From: Clostridiales bacterium
GTDB lineage: Bacteria > Bacillota > Clostridia > Christensenellales > JAISNN01
NCBI GenBank assembly: GCA_031275485.1
Contig: JAISOS010000045.1
Location: forward strand, 1 to 51,317
Length of the DNA: 51,317 nt
Reading direction: 5' to 3'
Of the stretch, positions 10,067 through 28,230 are shown in pieces (within the stretch, counting starts at the first letter, position 1; each line of letters begins with the position of its first letter). The translations under genes and the position numbers were made by a program. The notes beneath the pieces are model-generated. The model did not search any database and was not told where the DNA came from. It worked only from the letters and a program-made list of their open reading frames with translations.

Positions 10067-13000
10067 ATGTTTGCAAAATTCAGCGTGAAAAGACCGCATA
10101 CCGTTATAGTGGCTATCGTTTTGATAGCCATTCTCGGCTTTTTGTCGTTTCGGGATATGGGCGTGGATTTTTTGCCGAACATAAATCTGCCGTACATAGT
10201 CGTCGCCACGCCTTACCCCGGAGGCTCCTCGCCGGAGGCCGTCGAGGAGGTAGTTACCGCGCCCCTCGAACAGGTCATAGCGACCGCCGGCAACATCAAA
10301 AGCATTACGACGGAATCATATCCTATGCTGTCCTTTATAATCATAGAGTTTAAGGGCGGTACCGATATAAATTCCGCGCTGACCGAAATCAACGAGAAAA
10401 TCAAAAACTTCAAGACGATGAGGGAAAGCTCCGGACTTTTGGACGAGGCGGTGAATTCGGGAGGCTCCACGATACCGGATCAGTTCGCCGACGCCGCCGA
10501 TCTTATGAACGCAATTTCGGATTCCGTGGTTATGACCGTCAATCCGACTATGCTCCCGATTATGAAGATTTCGCTCTACGAACGAGGCAAGACGATTGCC
10601 GAATCTTCGGCGTATCTCGAGGCGGCCGCGAAAAAACTAGAGACCGTGGACGGCGTGTCGTCCGTGGACGTTACCGGACTTGTCAAGACGATGTATTTTC
10701 TCAATATCGACAACGGCAAAATTATAAACTCCGTGCTGTCCGCGTTTATAGATTTCGACGCTGCGTTCGACGCGCTCTACGACGGGATTTTGGCGCTGTC
10801 CCGCGAGGCTGCGGATGGCAGATTGGCCGACGACGCGGCGATTATGGCGCAAAACGTTCAAGCCGCCGCAGACGCGGTATTCGCGGAGATGAACGGACTT
10901 GCCGCGGCGCTGGGCGGCGCGGTCGAAGACGCGGTTTCGGGCGTCGCGGAAAGGGCGGCGGACGGTATGTTCGATATGATTAAGGACGCGGCGGACGCGG
11001 CGTTCGGCGGCTTGGACGCGGACGGGAGGGGCGCGGCGGAAGCTCTCAAAAATATGATTTTGGACGCCGTTTCCGATGCGGAGGTCTCCTTTACGGAGGC
11101 GGCAAAGACGGCGGCGGTGGAGGCCGTCGGGCAGTTTTTCGACGGATTGATAATTTCCTTAAACGCCGCTTTCGACGGCTTGTATACGGGCGATCCTATA
11201 AACGACGGTCTGATAGACGGCTTGAAGCAAAGCGTTTCGGAAGCCGCGGAGGGTATGCGGGAGCCTCTTTACGAGGCGGCGAGAGACGCCGCCGCGAGCG
11301 TGTCCGCCGGCGTTTTCAACGGATTAAGAGAAAGCGTAAGCGCGGCGTTCGACGGTCTGAACGCGGAAGGAGCGCTCGACGAAATTATAGAGGGAATAAG
11401 AGAAAGCGTTTCGGAAGCGATAGAGAACGCGAGGGCGGCCTTTAAGGAATCTTTGAGAACCGCCGTAGAGGGGAGCGTGACGGACGCCGTTCAAGGAGAG
11501 ATAAACGCGTTAAAGGCCGAAATCGACGGAATTATAGGGGAAGCCGCAGACTTCGCCGACGAATATCTGACGATGATAGGCCCCGCGATAGAAGACCCCG
11601 CCGCCGTGCTTTACGGCGTGCTGAAAGACGCGGAAACGCGCGTACAATATAAAACGCTCTACTTCGACGCGCTCGACGCGCTGTTCGATTACGCGGGCGC
11701 GGCGATCGGCGAGATAATAGCCGCCGATCTTTTGGAAATGGCGCTGTTCGCTAACGATATGGAAATGCCCGTAGGCTCGGTCGGCGGCTCGACGATAGCC
11801 GTAGGCAATAAGGTGACGACGAAAGAGGAGTTGTTTACTCTTCCGATAGCGACGGTAAATATCGCGGACGAAATTTTAAACGCCGTCGCGGGACTGAGAC
11901 TAAGCGAATTGGACGCGGCTTATCAAACGAACGCGCTTCTACTCGCGTTCGCCGAATCGCTCGCCGCGTGGGCGCTGACCCCGGGCGCAAGCGCGGCGGG
12001 GCTTTTGAGCTCCGTTATAAAGGCCGTCGACGGCGCGGGCTTAAAAACCGAAACATTGAGAGAGCTTTTGAGGCTGTACGGCATAACCTCCGACATATTC
12101 GGAGATCTGAACGCGATAGACGAGGCTTTCGAGGACGGGAAATTCTCTCTTTCCTCGTTGCTCGCCGCGAACGAAGCGTTCGGAGACGCCGTGCATTGGC
12201 TACGGGACGGCAGTATCACGCTGCGTCTTGACGATATTTGCGCGATTACCGAAATCGACAACGGGAGCCTTCTGCATACGATTTTGAACGGCGTGGCGGG
12301 CGTACAACTCAGTGTGAACAAGAATCCGACCGCGTCCACTGCGGAAGTTTCAAGCGGAGTGCGCGCGCTCCTTGAGGAGCTTGCGGCGCAAAATCCCGAC
12401 CTCGAATACGTAGTTCTCGAGGATCAGGGCGAGTATATTCAATTGGTGATAAACACAATTTTGAGCAGTCTTATCACGGGCGGCATACTGGCGGTTCTGG
12501 TTCTGCTATTTTTTCTGAAAAAGACCGGTCCGACAATCGTCGTCGGTCTGTCGATAGTTCTTAGCCTCGTTTTGGCGTTCATTATGATGCGTCTCGCGGG
12601 GATAGAGCTTAATATAGCCTCGATGGGCGGACTGGTACTCGGCGTGGGCATGCTTGTGGACAATTCCATCGTCGTAATCGAGAACATATTCTCTATGAAA
12701 AACTCGGGCAAGGACGTGTTTAAGGCGGCGGTAGACGGCACGAATCAGGTTACGGAGGCTATCGTCGCGTCCACGCTTACGACCGTCGTAGTGTTCGTGC
12801 CGCTGTTCTTTACAAGCGGCATAGCCTCGGAAATCATAACCGACCTCGCGCTCACGATGTCTTTCGCGATCGCGTCGAGTCTCATAGTCGCCTTGACCTT
12901 CGTGCCTATGGCGGCGACCACCTTTATAAAAAATTCCGACAAGATTTCGCGCCTGCAAACTTTCGCCTTCGGGCTGTTCTATAAATTTACGTCGGATTTA

Positions 13001-15307
13001 AAAAAACGCCCGAAATGGTTGCGCGCCGCGCTTTCGCCCGTCGTTATAGCGGGGAATCTGCTGATAAAGGAAACTTCGGAGCGCGACGGGAAATTGTTTA
13101 ACATATTCAAAAAGGGCTATAAAAACGTACTCAAATTCTGCCTCAATAAAAAGGTCGTCCCGATTACCGTTGCGGCGGTTCTTTTGGGCTTCGCCGCGCT
13201 CGCGGCGTTCACCGTGAACAGCTCGATTCTGCCCGAGCTCGATATGAACACGATAAATATGCACTTTGACGTGGACGAGACCAAGCTTTACGAGTACGGC
13301 TTCGACAAAAACGACGTGTTGCAAGCACTAATGTACGCGACCGACGACGCCGTTGAAAGGCGCGGAGAGCGCGAAATCGCGGACAGCAGCGTTTCGGTCT
13401 ATACGGGCTTCAAGATTATGGGTTCGTCGATAGAGGATATGAGCGGCGGGCTTATCAATACGGACGGAATGTTCGGAGGCACGCTCCTCGGCGGCGCGGT
13501 GTCGTCCGGCGGCGACCTCGAATGCACGGTGCTTCTGAACGACAAAAAAATCCGAAAAAAATCCGCCGCGGATATAGCGGGAGAGATAGCGCGCGAAATT
13601 TCCGCCGTAACTTACGGTCAAACCGGCGCGGGCGGCGGCTCCGGGCTTTTCGGCGGCATAAATTTGGGAGGAATAGACCTCGGAGGCATAGATTGGGACG
13701 CGATCCTTGGCGGCGGGGCGTCCGCGTCCGGCGAAAAACCGTTTTCCGACTTCGTAAGGATAAGCTATTCTTTCAACAGCATAGCGGAAATTGCCGCCCT
13801 AGACAACGATTACGTTCAGTTGAACGTCTACGCGGACGATATGACGATTCTGGAAGCGCAGACTGCGGCTCTCACCGAGACGATTAGAAATAACGCGCGC
13901 GGCGTAACCGCCGTCTCGAACACTCTGGAAAACCGCGCCTACGAGTACCGCTTAATTCTGGACAAGGATAAGGTAAGCCAAAAGACGGGCGGCTTTAACG
14001 CCACCGTCATTATGGAGCTTTTACGGCGGTTTACCGAACCCGCGTCCGGCTCCGCCGTCACTTTGACCGACGCGGACGGGAAAAAGACGTCTTACGACGT
14101 AACCGTCTATTCGTCCGAAAGAGAGGTCAAAAAATGGTACAGGATAGACGTCGCCAAATTGAGCGGCGCGGATGCGGGCAGATATAAGAACATATACGTG
14201 GAGGAATACGCCGCGAAGGACGAAAACGGCAAGGATACCGTTGTCGCGGCGTACTATACCTACGACACGGCGGGTATAAAATGGGCTTTGGAGAAACGCG
14301 CGGACGGCGCGTTCGTAAACGACGGCGCGGATATCCTGCTCTATAAAAAATCCGATACCATATACTACTCCACGGAATTCCGCGACGCGATAGCATCCGC
14401 GAAGGATCTCCTTTATTACGAATTGCCTTACGAGAATTTTTTGACGGGCGAGACTGGGACGGTCGCCTTGTATGAGCTTTTGAGCGAGGAATGCATAATC
14501 CGCAGCGAAAACGGAGAGCCGACCGATATAACGAAAACGCCTGCGGATATGAAAATAACCAAGACGTCCGGCTCGCGCTATCTTCCGATAACCGTATACT
14601 TCGGCTCCGGCACGGGCGTGAACGCCGTGAAATCCGAAATCAATAGGGCCGTCGCCGCTTATTATTCAGAAAACGCGAAGCCCGGCGGACTGACCTACGG
14701 GTTCTCGTCCTCCACCGCGCTTGCCGACGAGATATTCTCGACTATGTTCTTCGTTTTGGGGCTGGGCGTGGTTTTTATTTATCTCGTTATGGTCGCGCAG
14801 TTCAGATCCTTGAAAGACCCGCTCATCATTATGTTTACCGTGCTTTTGGCGTTTACGGGCAGTATGTTCGCGCTGGTTATGTTCGGAATGGAAATATCGA
14901 TGTTTTCCATAATAGCGTTCATAGTGCTCGCGGGCGTGGTCGTCAATAACGGCATCGTATTTATCGACTATACGAACAGGCAGATAGCCGAGGGTAAGTC
15001 CGTGCGCGAAGCGATCCTGAAAACCGCCGAGGACAGACTCCGCCCGATTTTAATGACCGCGCTGACCACTATTATGTCTTTGCTCGTTATGGCGTTCGAC
15101 GCCTCGCAGGCGGCGTCCGTGCTTCGTCCTATGGGCGTCGCCGCGACTGGCGGTTTGCTCTACGCGACGCTCCTTACTCTCATAATCGTGCCTACGCTTT
15201 TCGAGCTGTTCAATAAGGAAAAAAAGAACGGCAAAAAACGGTTCAGACTCTTCGCCGAAAATTACGAGTATTTCAATAAGGAACGGACAAAAAAAGAATC
15301 GCTGTGA
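10067..15307 (+). CDS. Giant RND-family efflux permease (AcrB/SwrC-like) with large porter-domain insertions
   Basis: A proton-driven membrane exporter of the AcrB/HAE group, 1746 residues against about 1030-1100 normally. The N-terminal membrane segment and porter start are typical (PYPGGSSPEAVEEVVTAPLE; FKGGTDINSALTEINEKI). At about residue 215, where AcrB has a short hairpin, roughly 330 residues of Ala/Asp/Glu-rich amphipathic helix with internal repeats (FDGLNAEGALDEIIEGIRES-like units) are inserted. The porter resumes at VGSVGGSTIAVGNKV, about 564. A second helical insertion of about 120 residues precedes LRLDDICAITEI, about 718. The first membrane bundle follows (GGLVLGVGMLVDNSIVVIENI). 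The second half also has a long Gly-rich stretch before the last bundle (VLAGVVVNNGIVFIDYTNR). No membrane-fusion partner is adjacent, as for SwrC. GGAGGTGA precedes the ATG. Confidence 0.9.
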   Translation: MFAKFSVKRPHTVIVAIVLIAILGFLSFRDMGVDFLPNINLPYIVVATPYPGGSSPEAVEEVVTAPLEQVIATAGNIKSITTESYPMLSFIIIEFKGGTDINSALTEINEKIKNFKTMRESSGLLDEAVNSGGSTIPDQFADAADLMNAISDSVVMTVNPTMLPIMKISLYERGKTIAESSAYLEAAAKKLETVDGVSSVDVTGLVKTMYFLNIDNGKIINSVLSAFIDFDAAFDALYDGILALSREAADGRLADDAAIMAQNVQAAADAVFAEMNGLAAALGGAVEDAVSGVAERAADGMFDMIKDAADAAFGGLDADGRGAAEALKNMILDAVSDAEVSFTEAAKTAAVEAVGQFFDGLIISLNAAFDGLYTGDPINDGLIDGLKQSVSEAAEGMREPLYEAARDAAASVSAGVFNGLRESVSAAFDGLNAEGALDEIIEGIRESVSEAIENARAAFKESLRTAVEGSVTDAVQGEINALKAEIDGIIGEAADFADEYLTMIGPAIEDPAAVLYGVLKDAETRVQYKTLYFDALDALFDYAGAAIGEIIAADLLEMALFANDMEMPVGSVGGSTIAVGNKVTTKEELFTLPIATVNIADEILNAVAGLRLSELDAAYQTNALLLAFAESLAAWALTPGASAAGLLSSVIKAVDGAGLKTETLRELLRLYGITSDIFGDLNAIDEAFEDGKFSLSSLLAANEAFGDAVHWLRDGSITLRLDDICAITEIDNGSLLHTILNGVAGVQLSVNKNPTASTAEVSSGVRALLEELAAQNPDLEYVVLEDQGEYIQLVINTILSSLITGGILAVLVLLFFLKKTGPTIVVGLSIVLSLVLAFIMMRLAGIELNIASMGGLVLGVGMLVDNSIVVIENIFSMKNSGKDVFKAAVDGTNQVTEAIVASTLTTVVVFVPLFFTSGIASEIITDLALTMSFAIASSLIVALTFVPMAATTFIKNSDKISRLQTFAFGLFYKFTSDLKKRPKWLRAALSPVVIAGNLLIKETSERDGKLFNIFKKGYKNVLKFCLNKKVVPITVAAVLLGFAALAAFTVNSSILPELDMNTINMHFDVDETKLYEYGFDKNDVLQALMYATDDAVERRGEREIADSSVSVYTGFKIMGSSIEDMSGGLINTDGMFGGTLLGGAVSSGGDLECTVLLNDKKIRKKSAADIAGEIAREISAVTYGQTGAGGGSGLFGGINLGGIDLGGIDWDAILGGGASASGEKPFSDFVRISYSFNSIAEIAALDNDYVQLNVYADDMTILEAQTAALTETIRNNARGVTAVSNTLENRAYEYRLILDKDKVSQKTGGFNATVIMELLRRFTEPASGSAVTLTDADGKKTSYDVTVYSSEREVKKWYRIDVAKLSGADAGRYKNIYVEEYAAKDENGKDTVVAAYYTYDTAGIKWALEKRADGAFVNDGADILLYKKSDTIYYSTEFRDAIASAKDLLYYELPYENFLTGETGTVALYELLSEECIIRSENGEPTDITKTPADMKITKTSGSRYLPITVYFGSGTGVNAVKSEINRAVAAYYSENAKPGGLTYGFSSSTALADEIFSTMFFVLGLGVVFIYLVMVAQFRSLKDPLIIMFTVLLAFTGSMFALVMFGMEISMFSIIAFIVLAGVVVNNGIVFIDYTNRQIAEGKSVREAILKTAEDRLRPILMTALTTIMSLLVMAFDASQAASVLRPMGVAATGGLLYATLLTLIIVPTLFELFNKEKKNGKKRFRLFAENYEYFNKERTKKESL

Positions 15308-20236: not shown

Positions 20237-20295
20237 CAACGACAGCGATACAAATAAAATTCTCCCCGCTATCTCTTTTGAAGGAGCAATGCCGT

Positions 20296-23166
20296 ATGAA
20301 TACAACGCCATTAGAAATGGATACAAGAAATCTGATAAACAAGAGCCTTGAAAATTTGGGTTGGGTGCTTGATGGTACACAGCAGAATGTTTATTTCGAA
20401 CAACCTAAAACGGAAACTGAAAAAAAGAAGTTGGGCGGTAAACGACCCGACTATGTACTATATTCATCTGATAAAAACGCCAATGACAAGCCGTTGATTG
20501 TTATTGAGGCGAAAAAGAAGGGCGAGCGTTTGGATACGGCTTTGGAGCAAGGGGTTCACTATGCCCGTCAGCTTGAGGCTCCCATTGTTTTTGCCACGGA
20601 TGGCCTGTTCTGTAAATCCTATCATACAAAGTTTGACAGGACGCCTATTCTGAATGGTGAAGAAGTGGATGAATTTCTTCGTGAAGCGTTAGCATTAAAA
20701 TATTTATCGCAATGGGAAGTCAACACTGTTTCGCCCAAGGTTCAATATGACCGCAAAGAACTCATCAAAATTTTTGATGAAGCCAATAATATGCTCCGTG
20801 GCGAAGGGCTTCGCGCAGGAATTGAGCGTTTTGGCGAATTTGCAAATATCCTTTTTTTGAAACTGATAAGTGAAACGGAGCAAATCAAAGAAGAATCGGG
20901 CGAAAAATCGGATTTCGATTCAGCTTGCCGTTGGGATGCAATAAAAAACATTCCGGCAACTGCCAGAATTGATTATATTAATGCTACCGTTTTTGAGCGA
21001 CTAAATACCAGATATAACACACCTATATTTACGCCGCTTACTATTCGTAGCGAAAGCATCTTGAAAGAGATAATGGACAAATTAGACCCTCTGATGCTGA
21101 CGGATGTTGATTCAGACGTTAAGGGAGATGCTTTTGAATATTTCCTTAAAGAATCTGCTGCCACTAAAAATGACTTAGGCGAGTATTTTACACCTCGTCA
21201 TATCGTTAAAACGATGGTTAAATTGGTCAATCCACAAATTGGGGAAAAAATATATGACCCTTTCTGTGGAACGGGTGGATTTCTCATTGAAAGTTTCCGT
21301 CACATATGGAACACTATGGCGAGAAATGATGAAAACAAGAGCAAGCTTAAAGAGAAAACTATTTACGGTAATGAGATAACTAATACTGCCAGAATAACGA
21401 AAATGAATATGATACTGGCTGGTGACGGTCATAGCAACATTCATATGAAGGACAGTCTTGCTAATCCTGTCGATGGAATGAAAAACGAGGGTTATGACAT
21501 TGTCATCACCAATATGCCCTATTCTCAAAAGACCAAGTATGGTAGCCTGTATGACTTGCCATCCAACAACGGTGATAGTATATGCGTTCAGCATTGTATG
21601 AAAGCAATCAATGCCACCGCCGAAAATGGGCGCATGGCTCTTGTTGTGCCAGAAGGCTTTTTGTTCCGTAAGGATTTAGCAAAAACGCGAGAGTTGCTTA
21701 TGAAAAACAGTAATCTTCAAAGCGTTGTTTCTTTACCGCAGGGGGTCTTTTTACCCTATACAGGTGTGAAAACGGACATTATTTATGCCACAAAGGTAAA
21801 TCAAAAACTCAAAGCTGCCGATAAGCGTAAAGACTTCTGGTATTTTGAGGTTAAAAATGATGGCTATACGCTTGATAACCACAGGCGCAAATTAGATGTT
21901 GGCAACGATTTGGAAAAGCCGCAGGAATATCGCAAATTAGATGAAGACCAACGCCAAGAAATGATGGATGTTGGTTTTGAAACCATACCTATTGAAAAGG
22001 TTAAGAACAATTCTTATATTTTGGTGGGCAGTAGATATAGGGAACAAAGCCAGTCCAAAAGCATGTTTGAATTGTTGCCGTTAAAAGCAGTGACAGAAAT
22101 TATTGCAGGACAATCACCTGATGGGAGTAATTATAATACGCAGGGTAACGGCATCCCCTTCTATCAAGGCAACGCTGATTTCGGTTCTGTTTGCCTCAAT
22201 GCGCCCCAAAAATGGACCACACAGATTACTAAAACAGCAATCACCTCAGATATTCTGCTATCCGTAAGAGCTCCAGTTGGAGCGGTTAATATTTGTAATC
22301 AAGAAGTGTGCATCGGCAGAGGTCTTATGGCTTTACGCGCAAAAAATATAACCGAAGCAAAGTACCTTTTCTATGTACTAAAGGGCGCATCTGAAAAACT
22401 GCGCAATTTTTCTTCGGGAAGTACTTTTGAGGCAATTACTAAAAAGGATGTTGAGGATTTCAAAATACCTGTGCCATCATTTGAAATTCAGCAACAAATC
22501 GTTGATGAACTGGATAGCTATCAACGCATTATTGATGGTGCGAGAGCGGTTGCGGATAATTACAGCCGTATAATTCGCATTGGCTCAGACTGGGAATTGA
22601 GAAAAGTTGGCGATATGTGTAAAATAAATAGTGAATCGGTAGACCCATCGCAAAAATATGGAGAATCTGAGTTTGTCTATATTGATATTTCTTCCATTGA
22701 AAACAGTACAGGTGCTATTGAAAGAGTGAATCATATAAAGGGAACGAATGCCCCAAGTCGCGCCCGACGAGTTTTCAAGTATGGAGACATACTGATGTCA
22801 ACTGTCAGACCTAACCTAAAAGCATTCGCCTATGTTGATTTTGATGCAGGTAACTATATTGCTTCAACTGGTTTTGCCGTGCTAACGCCGGAAAATGTTT
22901 CGGGGAAATTTCTTTATTATATGCTATTCCAAGATTTCGTGGGGAATCAACTAACAGACTTGATGAGCAAAGGTATGTACCCAAGTATTAATAAATCTGA
23001 TGTGGAAAGCATTAGCATACCCGTTCCGTCAATAGAAGTTCAACAACAGATTGCATCTGAAATCGAAAAGGAAGAATCGCTTGTTGAACCATCAAAACAG
23101 CTTGTAAAGGTATTCACAAAGAAAATTCAAAATCGCATCAATGAGATTTGGGGTGAAAAAGTATGA
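20296..23166 (+). CDS. Single-chain restriction-modification-specificity enzyme (type IIG/type I-like RMS fusion)
   Basis: It combines in 956 residues what type I systems split into subunits. Residues 1-110 resemble a type I HsdR N-terminal nuclease: Asp52 (RPDYVLY) and Glu71-x-Lys73 (IVIEAKKK) form a PD-(D/E)xK site. Residues about 150-580 are an N6-adenine methylase: SAM motif DPFCGTGGFLIES (321-333) and catalytic NMPY (406-409, where NPPY is usual). Residues about 590-760 and 765-950 are two HsdS-like target recognition domains, each ending in IPVPS..IQQQI-type helices. No translocase helicase is present. I use the ATG at 20296, nine bases after AAGGAG, rather than the TTG at 20278. It overlaps the next gene by four bases. 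Codon usage is A+T-rich, in line with transfer. Confidence 0.88.
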   Translation: MNTTPLEMDTRNLINKSLENLGWVLDGTQQNVYFEQPKTETEKKKLGGKRPDYVLYSSDKNANDKPLIVIEAKKKGERLDTALEQGVHYARQLEAPIVFATDGLFCKSYHTKFDRTPILNGEEVDEFLREALALKYLSQWEVNTVSPKVQYDRKELIKIFDEANNMLRGEGLRAGIERFGEFANILFLKLISETEQIKEESGEKSDFDSACRWDAIKNIPATARIDYINATVFERLNTRYNTPIFTPLTIRSESILKEIMDKLDPLMLTDVDSDVKGDAFEYFLKESAATKNDLGEYFTPRHIVKTMVKLVNPQIGEKIYDPFCGTGGFLIESFRHIWNTMARNDENKSKLKEKTIYGNEITNTARITKMNMILAGDGHSNIHMKDSLANPVDGMKNEGYDIVITNMPYSQKTKYGSLYDLPSNNGDSICVQHCMKAINATAENGRMALVVPEGFLFRKDLAKTRELLMKNSNLQSVVSLPQGVFLPYTGVKTDIIYATKVNQKLKAADKRKDFWYFEVKNDGYTLDNHRRKLDVGNDLEKPQEYRKLDEDQRQEMMDVGFETIPIEKVKNNSYILVGSRYREQSQSKSMFELLPLKAVTEIIAGQSPDGSNYNTQGNGIPFYQGNADFGSVCLNAPQKWTTQITKTAITSDILLSVRAPVGAVNICNQEVCIGRGLMALRAKNITEAKYLFYVLKGASEKLRNFSSGSTFEAITKKDVEDFKIPVPSFEIQQQIVDELDSYQRIIDGARAVADNYSRIIRIGSDWELRKVGDMCKINSESVDPSQKYGESEFVYIDISSIENSTGAIERVNHIKGTNAPSRARRVFKYGDILMSTVRPNLKAFAYVDFDAGNYIASTGFAVLTPENVSGKFLYYMLFQDFVGNQLTDLMSKGMYPSINKSDVESISIPVPSIEVQQQIASEIEKEESLVEPSKQLVKVFTKKIQNRINEIWGEKV

Positions 23167-23951
23167 ATGCTGAATTTGACACCTCAAGTGTGCCTTATCT
23201 TGACGAAATCCTCTCGTATCTTCCCATTGAAGCGGAAGATACGGAGGATGTTTCGGCATATCTGAAAAACATTACCAATCTCATTGCATTGAACTACAAA
23301 TATGAGCAATACCAATTTGCTTATTTCGGACTGCATCTTTTGTATATGACATATATCTATGTCACTGTTTGGAAAATCAGCAAAATACATACGGAACGAT
23401 ATAATGATGCCGTTTGCTTCGCCCGTACCTATAGCGGGCGCAACAATGAGCTTGATTTTGAAAATATTGGTTCCGTTTTTGAGTATAGTCTTGTGTCCGA
23501 AAAAGAATTGCCGAAGATATTTAAAATCATTGAGTTGAACGAAGGGCAAATCGGCACTATAGCAGGATTGGTAGATACTCGAAACGATATGGCTCATGCC
23601 TCAGGTAAATTTGAGTTACTGACGGAAATATCATTTAATACTAATGCGAACAGCATTCTTTCATCCATCCGAAACATTCATAACTGCATGGATAAGCCTC
23701 TCCGCAAATGGTATGAGGACTTTCTTTTACAACTGTGCAATGGTGAGTTTGAAGAATACACCGATTTTAATGATTTGATATTTGAGAAAATGATTCAAGG
23801 ATTTAACCTATCTATGGTTGAATTATCGGCTTGTAATAAAATGAGTTTGCAGAAACTGCGTACAGACTATCCCCAACATAGAGAACTGCTAAAACGATTT
23901 GAAAACGACCTATCGCAATACTGTCAAAACAATGGATATATAACCGACTAA
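23163..23951 (+). CDS. HEPN-motif protein coupled to the RMS enzyme (candidate RNase effector)
   Basis: I do not recognise a named family for this 262-residue protein. Residues 140-145 read RNDMAH, an Rx4H motif of the kind that forms the active site of HEPN ribonucleases, set in a helical context (GQIGTIAGLVDTRNDMAHASGKF). A second helical region with aromatic residues (residues 45-75) and a long C-terminal helix fit an all-helical fold. Its ATG overlaps the RMS stop codon (ATGA), with GGGGTGA upstream, so the two are translated together. PrrC, a HEPN anticodon nuclease, is similarly tied to a type I system, so an abortive back-up nuclease is a reasonable hypothesis. A simple non-catalytic HEPN-like or AbiV-type protein is the alternative. 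Confidence 0.6.
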   Translation: MNAEFDTSSVPYLDEILSYLPIEAEDTEDVSAYLKNITNLIALNYKYEQYQFAYFGLHLLYMTYIYVTVWKISKIHTERYNDAVCFARTYSGRNNELDFENIGSVFEYSLVSEKELPKIFKIIELNEGQIGTIAGLVDTRNDMAHASGKFELLTEISFNTNANSILSSIRNIHNCMDKPLRKWYEDFLLQLCNGEFEEYTDFNDLIFEKMIQGFNLSMVELSACNKMSLQKLRTDYPQHRELLKRFENDLSQYCQNNGYITD

Positions 23952-23985
23952 GAAATCTTCTCCGAAAGAATCGAGGTGAATCCAC

Positions 23986-25491
23986 ATGAAAGCCGTAATC
24001 TACGCCCGCTATTCCTCGGATAATCAGCGTGAGGAAAGCATTGAGGGGCAAATTCGTGAGTGCAAAGCCTATGCCGAAAAGCAGAGCATTACGGTGCTAT
24101 CCACCTACATTGACCGGGCTTTTTCTGCCAAGACGGATAACCGCCCCGAATTTCAGCGAATGATTAAGGATAGCGGCAAGCGTCTTTTTGATGTCATAAT
24201 CGTGTGGAAGCTTGACCGATTCGCGAGAAATCGCTACGATTCGGCGCATTATAAAGCCATTCTCCGCAAAAACGGTGTCAAGGTCGTTTCCGCAACAGAG
24301 ATTATCGCTGCTGATTCCACAGGCATTTTACTTGAATCCCTGCTTGAAGGATATGCCGAATTTTATTCCGCCGAACTGTCTGAAAAGGTAATCCGCGGCA
24401 TGACCGAAAACGCTTTGAAATGCAAATATAACGGCGGCGGGTTGCCCGTGGGCTATACTATTGACAGCGACCAGCAGTTTCAAATCGACCCGGTTACCGC
24501 ACCGATTGTGCGGGATACCTTTGAAAAATATCACAGCGGCTCGACCATAGTAGAAATCGTCCGTTGGCTGAATGAACGTGGCATCAAGCCACAGCGCGGC
24601 AAGGCAATGGGAATTGACAGCGTAAAACGCCTATTAAAAAATCGCCGTTATATTGGCGAATACAAATATCGGGACACGACGGTTCCGAACGGTATTCCGG
24701 CGTTGGTTGACATTGATTTATTCAACCGCGTGGGTGAGCGCCTTGCAAAGAACAAGAAAGCTCCCGCCAGATATAAGGCAAAAGCTGAGATGTATTTGCT
24801 CTCTACGAAGCTCCATTGCGGTCTTTGCGGCGCCTTTATGGTCGGGGAAAGCGGCACGAGCAAAACCGGAAAATTCCACCAGTATTATAAATGCGTGAAC
24901 GCAAAAAAACACAAGGGGTGCAAGAAAAAATCTGTCAAGAAAGCTTGGATTGAAGCCCTTGTGATGGACGAGCTTGTGGCGATGCTGTTTGACGATGCGA
25001 TTATTGACCGCATTGTTGATTTGGTGATGGAGTCGCAAAATCAAGAGAATACCGCCCTGCCGGTTTTGCAGACAAGATTGACTGAAACCACAAAAGCTAT
25101 TGAAAATATCCTCAATGCCATTCAGCAGGGCATTCTAACTCCGTCCACTAAAGAGCGGCTTGAAGCGTTGGAGCAAGCTAAGGAAGAATTGGAAATGGAC
25201 ATTTTACAGGAGGAATTATTCCGTCCGTTTGTTTCGGAGGCTAAAATTCGCTTCTGGTTACATAAATTCCGCGAGGGAGATTTGCAAGACCCGGAACATC
25301 GGCAACGATTGGTGGATAGCTTTATCAACGTAATCTATCTGTTTGATGACCACTTTACAATTACCTTCAACTACAAAGAGGGCGCAAAAACCGTATCGTT
25401 AGCCGATGTTCAAGCTTCGGCGGCAACGACTGCGATTCGTTCGGATTTGTGTGCGGTCGGCGCACCAATAACGAAAGCGTTTGGACCCTAA
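23986..25491 (+). CDS. Large serine recombinase (site-specific integrase/resolvase)
   Basis: It catalyses integration and excision of the element through a serine-DNA intermediate. The N-terminal catalytic domain begins VIYARYSSDNQREESIEGQ, with Ser10 as the likely nucleophile, and includes VIIVWKLDRFARNRYDS. The recombinase domain follows (VGYTIDSDQQFQIDP; GIKPQRGKAMGIDSVKRLLKNRRYIGEYKYRD). Then come a zinc ribbon (LHCGLCGAFM, later CVNAKKHKGC) and a coiled coil at about residues 360-420. At 501 residues it is of normal size. GAGGTGA precedes the ATG. It lies at the right end of the element, next to the expected attachment site, and is followed by an intrinsic terminator. Confidence 0.93.
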   Translation: MKAVIYARYSSDNQREESIEGQIRECKAYAEKQSITVLSTYIDRAFSAKTDNRPEFQRMIKDSGKRLFDVIIVWKLDRFARNRYDSAHYKAILRKNGVKVVSATEIIAADSTGILLESLLEGYAEFYSAELSEKVIRGMTENALKCKYNGGGLPVGYTIDSDQQFQIDPVTAPIVRDTFEKYHSGSTIVEIVRWLNERGIKPQRGKAMGIDSVKRLLKNRRYIGEYKYRDTTVPNGIPALVDIDLFNRVGERLAKNKKAPARYKAKAEMYLLSTKLHCGLCGAFMVGESGTSKTGKFHQYYKCVNAKKHKGCKKKSVKKAWIEALVMDELVAMLFDDAIIDRIVDLVMESQNQENTALPVLQTRLTETTKAIENILNAIQQGILTPSTKERLEALEQAKEELEMDILQEELFRPFVSEAKIRFWLHKFREGDLQDPEHRQRLVDSFINVIYLFDDHFTITFNYKEGAKTVSLADVQASAATTAIRSDLCAVGAPITKAFGP

Positions 25492-25800: not shown

Positions 25801-27453
25801 TTATTCCCCGAACAGTTTTCCCTTAATCATCGCGCGCAACTCGTTTAAGCCCTCGCCTGTTTTCGCCGAAATGCGAACCGAATCGGACAATGCGGGTTTG
25901 AAACCGTCATTAGCCGTATCGATTTTGCCGTATGCGGAATCGGATAACGCGGAGTCGAATCCGTCCTTTGCGAGGTCGATTTTGTTATACGCCGTAATAA
26001 TAGGTTTGCCGCCCGCGCCGAGTGTGTCGAGAACGCTGAGAACCGTGTCGTACTGCCTCCGCACAGACGGAGAGGAGCAGTCCGCAACGTGTACCAAAAG
26101 ATCGGCGTATTTCGCCTCCTCAAGCGTCGAACGGAACGCGTCTATCAACTCGTGGGGGAGGCGGTCGATAAAGCCGACCGTGTCCGTAAGCAAATATTCC
26201 TTGCCGACGTCCGTCCAAATTCGCCGCGTGACTGGATCGAGCGTCGCGAACAGCTTGTCCTCGGCTAGTACGGACGCTTTCGCGAGCGCGTTCATAAGCG
26301 TGCTTTTTCCCGAATTCGTGTAGCCCACAAGCGCGACGGTTTTTATGCGGCCGTTCACGCGGTTTTCGCGACGCAGATCCCTGCCGCGCTTGATTTTTTC
26401 TATCTTTTCGGAAAGCTCTAAAATCATCCTTTTGGTATGCCGTCTGTCCGTTTCCAGTTTAGTTTCTCCCGCTCCTCTCGTCGCCGCTCCGCCCTCTCCG
26501 CCGCCGCCGATCCGAGACAGCGCCTTGCCCTGGCCCAAGAGCTTTGGTAGCGCGTATTGCAGTTTGGCGAGCTCTATTTGCAACTTACCCTCGTTGGTTG
26601 CGGCGCGGCGCGCGAAAATTTCCAAAATGAGCATGGCGCGATCCGCCGCCTTTACGTTCAGAGCGTTTTCTATATTCCGAAGCTGCAAGCCGGTCAACTC
26701 GTTGTCGAATATCACCGCGTCGGCTTTTTGCGCGTTGACGGCGGCGCGGATTTCCTCTATTTTGCCGCTGCCTACGCAAAAGTTTTTGTCCGGCGCGTCC
26801 TTTATCTGCGCGATTTCGCCTACAACGTTAAGCCCCGCCGTATCGGCGAGGCTTTTCAGCTCCGCGAGATATTCGTCAGAGTTCCTTTTCGCCGCGCAAA
26901 CTAAAATTACACGTTCCGCGTCTTTTACCGTTTTCAGCAGCGCGGGCTTTTCGAATACCTTTTCGGAGAGCGCGATATTGTAAAAGACCTCCGCGTGGTC
27001 TATTGCGTCATAGCTCCCGTACCTGACGATTTGCGTCTCGCCGCCGCTCCGTATGAACGCCGCCGATATGTCCGACGGCGCGCCGTCCGAAGCGTTGACT
27101 GCGGCGAGCATATCCAAGCGCAACGAATGCAACGCGTTTAGGTCCGCCTCGGAAAACGCGGACGACCCGTTCAGATGCGTGTGAAAGCACCTGACGCCCG
27201 TCAGCTTTTCTTCCGACCTTTTCAGGTTCAGGCGCATCGCCGCCACCTCCGCGCCGTCGCCTATGCCGACCGCCAAAACCTGCCCGCCGCGCGAGATATA
27301 CGCGCAGATTTCGCGGTTTATTCCGCGCGAAACGCGGCTGATTTCATCGAGAACGCCGCCGTCGATTATAAGATCCTTTTCATAAAAGCCCGCGAGGGCT
27401 TCGAGTCCCTCCAACACGCTTTTTTTTATCCCCGCCGTGTTGCCGTATACCAT
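25801..27453 (-). CDS. hflX: GTPase HflX, long form with N-terminal JAMM-like motif
   Basis: HflX is a ribosome-binding GTPase that splits stalled or hibernating ribosomes. The 550-residue protein has the HflX subdomain (FDNELTGLQLRNIENAL; GAGETKLETDRR) and a GTPase domain: P loop GYTNSGKS (377-384), FATLDP switch I, DTVG (424-427), NKID (490-493). It is about 130-170 residues longer than enterobacterial HflX. The extra N-terminus contains HTHLNGSSAFSEAD (91-104), an HxHx7SxxD arrangement as in JAMM metalloproteases, with Glu48 as possible upstream Glu. After NKID a segment is duplicated (KDGFDSALSDS, then NDGFKPALSDS). GGAGG precedes the ATG at 27453. Confidence 0.93.
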   Translation of the reverse strand: MVYGNTAGIKKSVLEGLEALAGFYEKDLIIDGGVLDEISRVSRGINREICAYISRGGQVLAVGIGDGAEVAAMRLNLKRSEEKLTGVRCFHTHLNGSSAFSEADLNALHSLRLDMLAAVNASDGAPSDISAAFIRSGGETQIVRYGSYDAIDHAEVFYNIALSEKVFEKPALLKTVKDAERVILVCAAKRNSDEYLAELKSLADTAGLNVVGEIAQIKDAPDKNFCVGSGKIEEIRAAVNAQKADAVIFDNELTGLQLRNIENALNVKAADRAMLILEIFARRAATNEGKLQIELAKLQYALPKLLGQGKALSRIGGGGEGGAATRGAGETKLETDRRHTKRMILELSEKIEKIKRGRDLRRENRVNGRIKTVALVGYTNSGKSTLMNALAKASVLAEDKLFATLDPVTRRIWTDVGKEYLLTDTVGFIDRLPHELIDAFRSTLEEAKYADLLVHVADCSSPSVRRQYDTVLSVLDTLGAGGKPIITAYNKIDLAKDGFDSALSDSAYGKIDTANDGFKPALSDSVRISAKTGEGLNELRAMIKGKLFGE

Positions 27454-27745
27454 TTTGCCTCCGCGCGCTTTTTGACTCCGTAACGGTCATTCGCGGTATT
27501 TTAGAGTATATCCGAAAAAACGACGAAAGTCAAGCGTATCGCCGCCGTTTTTACCCGGTCCTTTTTTTTCGCCGGCGTTGAAAAAATAATTCATCCTTTG
27601 AAACTTGGCGGCGAATAGTTTTCGGACGATTTTTGCGCGCGGTCGCGGCGTTTTTGACGGCGCGCGCTTTCGCGGTATTTTACGTTGCGGCGTCATACTG
27701 AGAGGCGGTAAAAGATACTGCGGGCGCGGTTTTGAAAGAGGTCTA
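27454..27745. other. Spacer between divergent hflX and the InsA-like gene
   Basis: About 290 nt with no gene or repeat recognised. It ends in the promoter at 27746. Confidence 0.4.
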
Positions 27746-27774: not shown

Positions 27775-27780
27775 ATGCGC

Positions 27781-28230
27781 ATGGAAAAAGCCGGAGAGAA
27801 AAAGATATGCCGCAATTGCGGTTCGACAAGAAACGTCAAGTGGGGAAAGAGAAGAGGCAAGCAGTGTTACAGGTGCGGTGACTGCGGCTTTCAATTTACA
27901 AGGGAGGACGGAAGAAAGTCGGAAAAAACTATTTTGCAGGCGGTGGCATTGTATTGTTGCGGTTTTTCGTTTAAGACGATAGGTATGATTCTTTACTATC
28001 ACGACACGACGATTATGCGTTGGATAGGCGAATTTGCGGATAAGCATTGCCAAAAACCGGTTTCCAAAGGTGAGGTTTTAATCGAATTGGACGAAATGCG
28101 CCGTTTTGTCGCTTCAAAAAAGGCACAACTGGAATTTGAAAAGCATGCCGAAGAGCAGGCGGAGCGCTTTTTGTCGGGGAACGCGAAAATAGAGATACCG
28201 CGGCTTCTGCAAGACTGCATAGTCGATTAG
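27781..28230 (+). CDS. Orphan IS1-like InsA/transposase N-terminal fragment
   Basis: The 149-residue product starts with a zinc ribbon (CRNCGS, then CYRCGDCGFQFT) followed by a helix-turn-helix (ALYCCGFSFKTIGMILYYHDTTIMRWI), as in the IS1-family InsA/transposase N-terminus. The part where a catalytic Asp would start is recognisable (VLIELDEMRRFVASKK), but then the sequence departs into a Glu/Ala/Lys-rich tail and stops, so no full DDE domain exists. No terminal inverted repeats were seen. It is either a decayed transposase or a DNA-binding protein derived from one. A good promoter argues that it is still expressed. I prefer the ATG at 27781 over 27775. Confidence 0.65.
   Translation: MEKAGEKKICRNCGSTRNVKWGKRRGKQCYRCGDCGFQFTREDGRKSEKTILQAVALYCCGFSFKTIGMILYYHDTTIMRWIGEFADKHCQKPVSKGEVLIELDEMRRFVASKKAQLEFEKHAEEQAERFLSGNAKIEIPRLLQDCIVD

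Follow-up and report, generated by a model that had tools for sequence, protein, structure and literature searches.

The window analysed here, a stretch of 51,317 nucleotides from a Clostridiales bacterium (contig JAISOS010000045.1), carries on its minus strand an hflX gene whose product extends N-terminally beyond the HflX core. The features of this gene are as follows.

25801..27453, minus strand: hflX, predicted MPN-HflX fusion of 550 aa with an ATG start (ORF; TIGR03156, 415.8 bits)
27458..27462, minus strand: GGAGG, likely ribosome-binding site, 4 bases before the ATG (sequence reading)
26944..27453, minus strand: N-terminal domain predicted to be of MPN/JAMM type, residues 1-170, with the MPN fold proper at about 27-154 (AlphaFold2 pLDDT 85.6; fold matches; conservation)
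27310..27312, minus strand: Glu48, predicted general acid-base residue (E in 129 of 131 distinct rows)
27142..27183, minus strand: residues 91-104, HTHLNGSSAFSEAD, predicted zinc site with H91, H93 and D104 as ligands and S101 as catalytic serine (sequence; roles by analogy with AfJAMM)
26926..26946, minus strand: flexible linker between the MPN domain and the HflX core, residues 170-176 (pLDDT below 50)
25804..26919, minus strand: canonical HflX core, residues 179-550 (structural alignment to 8a57_D and 5ady)
26611..26874, minus strand: GTP-bdg_N (HflX ND1), residues 194-281 (Pfam E 3.6e-30)
26359..26607, minus strand: GTP-bdg_M (helical region), residues 283-365 (Pfam E 3.3e-24)
25981..26340, minus strand: MMR_HSR1 GTPase domain, residues 372-491 (Pfam E 1.1e-20)

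By every test made, the protein is an HflX. Its match to TIGR03156, which begins at residue 183, scores 415.8 bits against a curated cut-off of 216.75 and places it in the family, and the HflX order of ND1, helical region and GTPase domain is present in the Pfam matches and in a full-length model. This model superimposes on Listeria HflXr on the ribosome (8a57_D) with Z 37.6 and 2.9 Å over 347 residues, and on E. coli HflX (5ady) with Z 33.9. Because residues from about 178/179 to 550 pair with the Listeria and E. coli structures from their residues 1 and 8, respectively, residues 1-170 can be read as having been added cleanly in front of an otherwise whole HflX.

Elsewhere in the window, a gene group at 20278-25491 (plus strand), convergent with hflX and ending just downstream of it, encodes a 962-aa protein with HSDR_N-like, N6_Mtase and Methylase_S regions, followed by a 262-aa ORF that has no Pfam match and then by a large serine recombinase. 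Divergent from hflX, at 27775-28230 (plus strand), lies the gene of a 151-aa zinc-ribbon protein that is IS1-type InsA-like by eye and has no Pfam match. An AcrB-type transporter ORF at 10067-15307 (plus strand) is 1746 aa long, compared with a profile of 1021 positions, and contains three matching stretches.

Site and predicted fold of the N-terminal domain

The JAMM pattern has been given as EXnHS/THX7SXXD, where the His and Asp residues hold zinc, the Glu is predicted to act in acid-base catalysis and a catalytic role is predicted for the second Ser (PMC300881). This pattern of the JAMM/MPN+ superfamily, EXnH(S/T)HX7SXXD, is present in the window protein: residues 91-104, HTHLNGSSAFSEAD, read H-x-H, seven residues and S-E-A-D, and a Glu stands at residue 48, just as the earlier sequence-only reading of this DNA had it. 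In 200,000 shuffles of the protein, HxHx7SxxD arose in 74 and H[ST]Hx7SxxD in 9, and the motif is found once among the 343 six-frame open stretches of at least 60 aa in the window.

Conservation of these five positions, proposed in the same reading as a check, bears it out and speaks against chance much more strongly than the shuffles do. E48, H91, H93, S101 and D104 are all kept in 128 of 131 distinct rows (column by column, 129, 128, 128, 130 and 129 of 131, respectively). The three rows that lose the site, L139, L140 and L143, drop both histidines together, and in two of the three the Glu has gone as well, which suggests that the JAMM site behaves as one functional unit; these rows are HflX with a site-dead MPN domain, comparable to the MPN- proteins of eukaryotes. 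The full site is found in all 80 loci kept from a scan of named genomes, where H91, T92 and H93 are conserved by construction because the seed peptide of the scan contained HTH. The 30 relatives of the order sample and the 28 of the phylum sample were not seeded on that peptide: all 30 domain matches of the former carry the motif, and 25 of the 28 of the latter have the full site, the profile for that search being alignment A2, which contains site-positive rows only. In an alignment of 30 relatives that had not been retrieved by their motif, E49, H92, T93, H94, S102 and D105 are invariant (first-row numbering), as are G4, R56, G58, G66, R89 and D115. The statement in the same reading that long clostridial forms of HflX carry an HTHPNG word was also correct, this word being seen in relatives from the named-genome scan.

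Structure prediction, another check that had been suggested, gives an MPN fold, so that neither of the two outcomes named beforehand as fatal to the reading has appeared. The AlphaFold2 model of the domain, made from 30 rows (pLDDT 85.6, pTM 0.78), retrieves from the PDB with Foldseek 2kcq of the Mov34/MPN/PAD-1 family at the top (E 1.3e-3, probability 0.98) and COP9 signalosome, PfJAMM1, Rpn11 and RadC chains at the next ranks, with low TM values of 0.31-0.38 in the leading rows. The top match in VIA-align is Pyrococcus PfJAMM1, with Z 8.3 and 3.7 Å over 113 residues, where the noise level of the tool is 7-8; RadC appears at rank 25 with Z 6.9, many rows being tied within 1 Z. All 50 of the 50 matches listed by VIA-align are MPN/JAMM chains, including Cap3, a bacterial Ubl-deubiquitinase and two chains of the ER membrane complex that we take to be MPN proteins. 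A Z of 8 alone would be weak, and it is the uniformity of the listed matches that makes the assignment persuasive. When the model was compared with viral models, the leading named matches were mostly MPN, RadC-JAB and minor capsid proteins. We consider the predicted MPN fold and its site to be well supported by computation.

At the level of sequence, no Pfam or NCBIfam model matches the N-terminal domain above its cut-off. Prok-JAB (PF14464), with a gathering cut-off of 25 bits, reaches 16.8 bits with the whole protein and 19.1 with the domain; RadC (PF04002) has no match in the window protein, and the best of the 12 relatives that do match it has E 0.0052. Over 30 members, Prok-JAB is touched by 20 and RadC by 12 at E values of up to 1, the best being 0.00043. 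A single-sequence search of solved structures gave only weak, apparently unrelated matches. The profile search of the PDB returned an unrelated S19 first (E 0.011), as well as AMSH-like protease and STAMBP (E 0.016-0.023), with HTHP..LSxVD in register, and further weak matches to N11, Prp8 and an MPN/PAD-1 protein. In hhalign comparisons, the domain scored 81% with RadC (E 1.2e-5) and a weak 2.9% with the Prok-JAB set (E 0.016), the motif being in register with both, while the accepted relatives RadC and Prok-JAB scored 46% with each other and eight unrelated or reversed control pairs at most 0.9%. Both of these sets are motif-chosen, because only motif-matching loci entered them (26 of 30 loci, matching the RadC motif, in the RadC profile, and 14 of 30 in the Prok-JAB profile). 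By its motif and predicted fold, the first domain is a member of the JAMM/MPN+ superfamily, within which it seems to form a separate JAMM family.

Distribution and history of the fusion

In all 138 copies, the domain shares its reading frame with an HflX core, and stand-alone copies account for none of these 138 matches, obtained with profiles seeded with HflX-fused copies. The order sample, comprising 61 genomes (the window's own and 60 relatives) from 50 genera and searched with the domain alone, has the domain in 30 genomes and 21 genera. HflX is over its cut-off in 38 of the 61 genomes, and the domain is present in 29 of these 38; in genome G005 it lies in a truncated gene below the HflX cut-off. 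A profile search of the phylum sample found the domain in 28 of 149 genomes, 122 of which have HflX (28 of 122). As about three quarters of the HflX genomes in this sample lack the domain, it is dispensable for HflX function in general.

The scan of named genomes yielded 394 confirmed relatives, and the 80 loci kept belong to Clostridia, Christensenella, Oscillospiraceae, Defluviitaleaceae and similar groups, with Acetivibrio mesophilus strain N2K1 (locus L104) among the carriers of the fusion. After these 80 loci had been thinned at 62% identity and screened for contig ends, 29 of them entered alignments A2/A3. No viral relatives of the domain were found in IMG/VR with peptide patterns or in phages with tblastn. 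Separately, in phylum family f80, the HflX frame of L238 and L240 (740 and 830 aa) continues, by eye, into a region like DusB-type tRNA-dihydrouridine synthase, another putative HflX fusion; L243 (756 aa) follows the same length pattern.

A quick tree was built from 81 HflX cores (52 carrying the domain and 29 lacking it), with cores shorter than 280 residues and identical cores left out. It needs 11 changes, compared with a mean of 23.8 after shuffling and with 0 of 500 shuffles as low, and at least three changes lie on well supported branches. These counts are one or two too high, because L166, a row scored as lacking the domain, is in all likelihood the C-terminal half of a fusion gene that has been split in two: it comes from the same genome as L027, and both lie at contig ends. 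The domain is patchy and appears to be old, an old gain followed by losses or transfers probably lying behind this pattern.

Proposed function and its alternatives

The reading that we favour, with moderate confidence, is that of a two-module protein in which a flexible linker connects an MPN+ (JAMM) zinc-metallopeptidase-type domain to an entire ribosome-splitting GTPase, the domain cutting a peptide or isopeptide bond at the large subunit. Most likely, the domain is an active zinc (iso)peptidase brought by HflX to the large ribosomal subunit, where zinc, activity and substrate are all putative. By analogy with AfJAMM, zinc would be held by H91, H93 and D104, water would be activated by E48, and the intermediate would be steadied by S101. 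A 2025 review describes displacement of H69 on the large subunit by HflX ND1, and, in M. smegmatis, a 39-residue extension before ND1 that touches uL16 and H38, reaches H69-71 and promotes splitting (PMC12493154). In the present protein, HflX-GTP on the ribosome would push H69 aside with its ND1 and split the 70S. Since the MPN domain, like the mycobacterial extension, precedes ND1, and since it is flexibly linked, it would be expected in the region where that extension lies, near uL16/H38/H69 on the side of the large subunit that faces the small one. There it would cut a tag, conjugate or tail on a ribosomal protein, a factor or the nascent chain of stalled or split ribosomes, the substrate itself being a guess. 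A bolder version, which we put forward only tentatively and think rather doubtful, is that Clostridia and their relatives have a metallo-isopeptidase coupled to the ribosome that has gone unrecognised, with HflX not only splitting stalled ribosomes but also trimming a modifier, peptide or protein, off the large subunit or nascent chain. If this were true, the rescue of ribosomes in bacteria would contain a deconjugation step similar to the removal of ubiquitin during ribosome quality control in eukaryotes.

ORF clustering of the 80 loci and the window found no conserved hflX neighbour that would name a substrate. The largest shared neighbour group covers 15 of 81 loci (frames overlapping hflX itself excluded), and in one group cysteine desulfurase-like (13 loci) and IscU-like (8 loci) genes, named by eye, precede hflX. 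The notion that the domain substitutes for the bL27-processing protease Prp was rejected, Prp being present in 21 of 30 fusion and 21 of 31 fusion-free genomes of the order sample, with no link.

The MPN domain could instead be a non-catalytic wedge or docking module, with the MPN subunits eIF3f and eIF3h as a possible parallel; it would bind rRNA or a ribosomal protein and aid splitting or keep the subunits apart, and any zinc would be structural or a sensor. This would agree with the mycobacterial extension, which promotes splitting and reaches H69-71 (PMC12493154), and with L139, L140 and L143, where the domain seems useful without its metal site because it is kept after the site has been lost. 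However, the full catalytic set persists in 128 of 131 distinct rows, and a wedge needs neither E48 nor S101, whose equivalents in AfJAMM do not hold the zinc (PMC300881), so that we regard a purely mechanical role as unlikely. Less likely still, the MPN domain would be RadC-like and work on rRNA, tRNA or a small ligand, in a nucleic-acid or signalling capacity and not as a peptidase. Of the two profiles compared, that of RadC lies closer (81%), the function of RadC was unknown in 2003 (PMC300881), and a ribosomal location would put RNA beside the site, but AMSH-type peptidases come first among the MPN proteins in the profile search of the PDB, and the fold comparison ranks PfJAMM1 first (Z 8.3) and RadC 25th (Z 6.9), with many ties within 1 Z.

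It also seems improbable that the domain strips targets on the ribosome of a ubiquitin-like protein of ThiS/MoaD type. JAMM proteins directed at CysO or SAMP remove ubiquitin-like proteins, the window genome has a ThiS-family and a ThiF-family ORF, and the structure of PfJAMM1, the top fold match, contains SAMP2 according to its title; against this, a small ThiS-family ORF is over its cut-off in only 7 of the 30 fusion genomes of the order sample. As most fusion genomes lack a recognisable modifier of this type, it is not supported as the general substrate, although a modifier from an unknown family may still play this part. Finally, the sub-threshold Pfam score would suit a motif that had arisen by chance in an unrelated extension, an explanation that is practically ruled out by the conservation in 128 of 131 rows, the predicted fold, the register with RadC and AMSH, and the 74 occurrences in 200,000 shuffles.

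Relation to known systems

HflX has been studied extensively as a factor in ribosome splitting and antibiotic tolerance, and much of the deubiquitination in eukaryotes centres on MPN+ domains. A widespread and, as it appears, old HflX/MPN+ fusion with an intact site would predict bond cutting on split ribosomes in some bacteria, a step of which we found no description in the literature searched, and it supplies exact residues for mutation and a named species, Acetivibrio mesophilus. An MPN/JAMM domain on HflX was likewise not described in that literature, where no paper mentions a JAB domain together with HflX; most subscription papers and all preprints lay outside the search, and an earlier account may therefore exist elsewhere. 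In one paper in which JAMM appeared to be mentioned together with HflX, the word was 'jammed'. The accessible part of a survey of JAB domains in prokaryotes, published in 2006, does not mention HflX (PMC1779556), and the 2025 review reports N-terminal extensions of HflX in several Clostridium spp. (PMC12493154).

The HflX proteins of E. coli (5ady), Listeria (8a57) and M. smegmatis (8vk0) resemble the window core (Z 33.9-37.6, 41-44% identity) but, unlike the window protein, are without the 170-residue MPN domain. The mycobacterial N-terminal extension also precedes ND1; however, extensions of that type have 39-58 residues, whereas the window protein has a predicted globular domain of 170 residues and falls outside the type. 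RadC (PF04002) belongs to the same superfamily as the domain by profile comparison, with the motif in register, but has PS before xxD where the HflX-fused domain has mostly LS, and the window genome encodes a separate RadC of its own on another contig. With the JAMM/MPN+ peptidases PfJAMM1, AfJAMM, AMSH, Rpn11, Csn5 and Cap3, the domain shares the complete EXnH(S/T)HX7SXXD pattern and the predicted fold, but none of them gives a strong sequence match to it (AMSH-like, E 0.016). In contrast to these peptidases, which are tied to ubiquitin machinery, the HflX-fused domain has its own conserved G4, R55, G57, G65, R88 and D114 and is joined to a ribosome GTPase.
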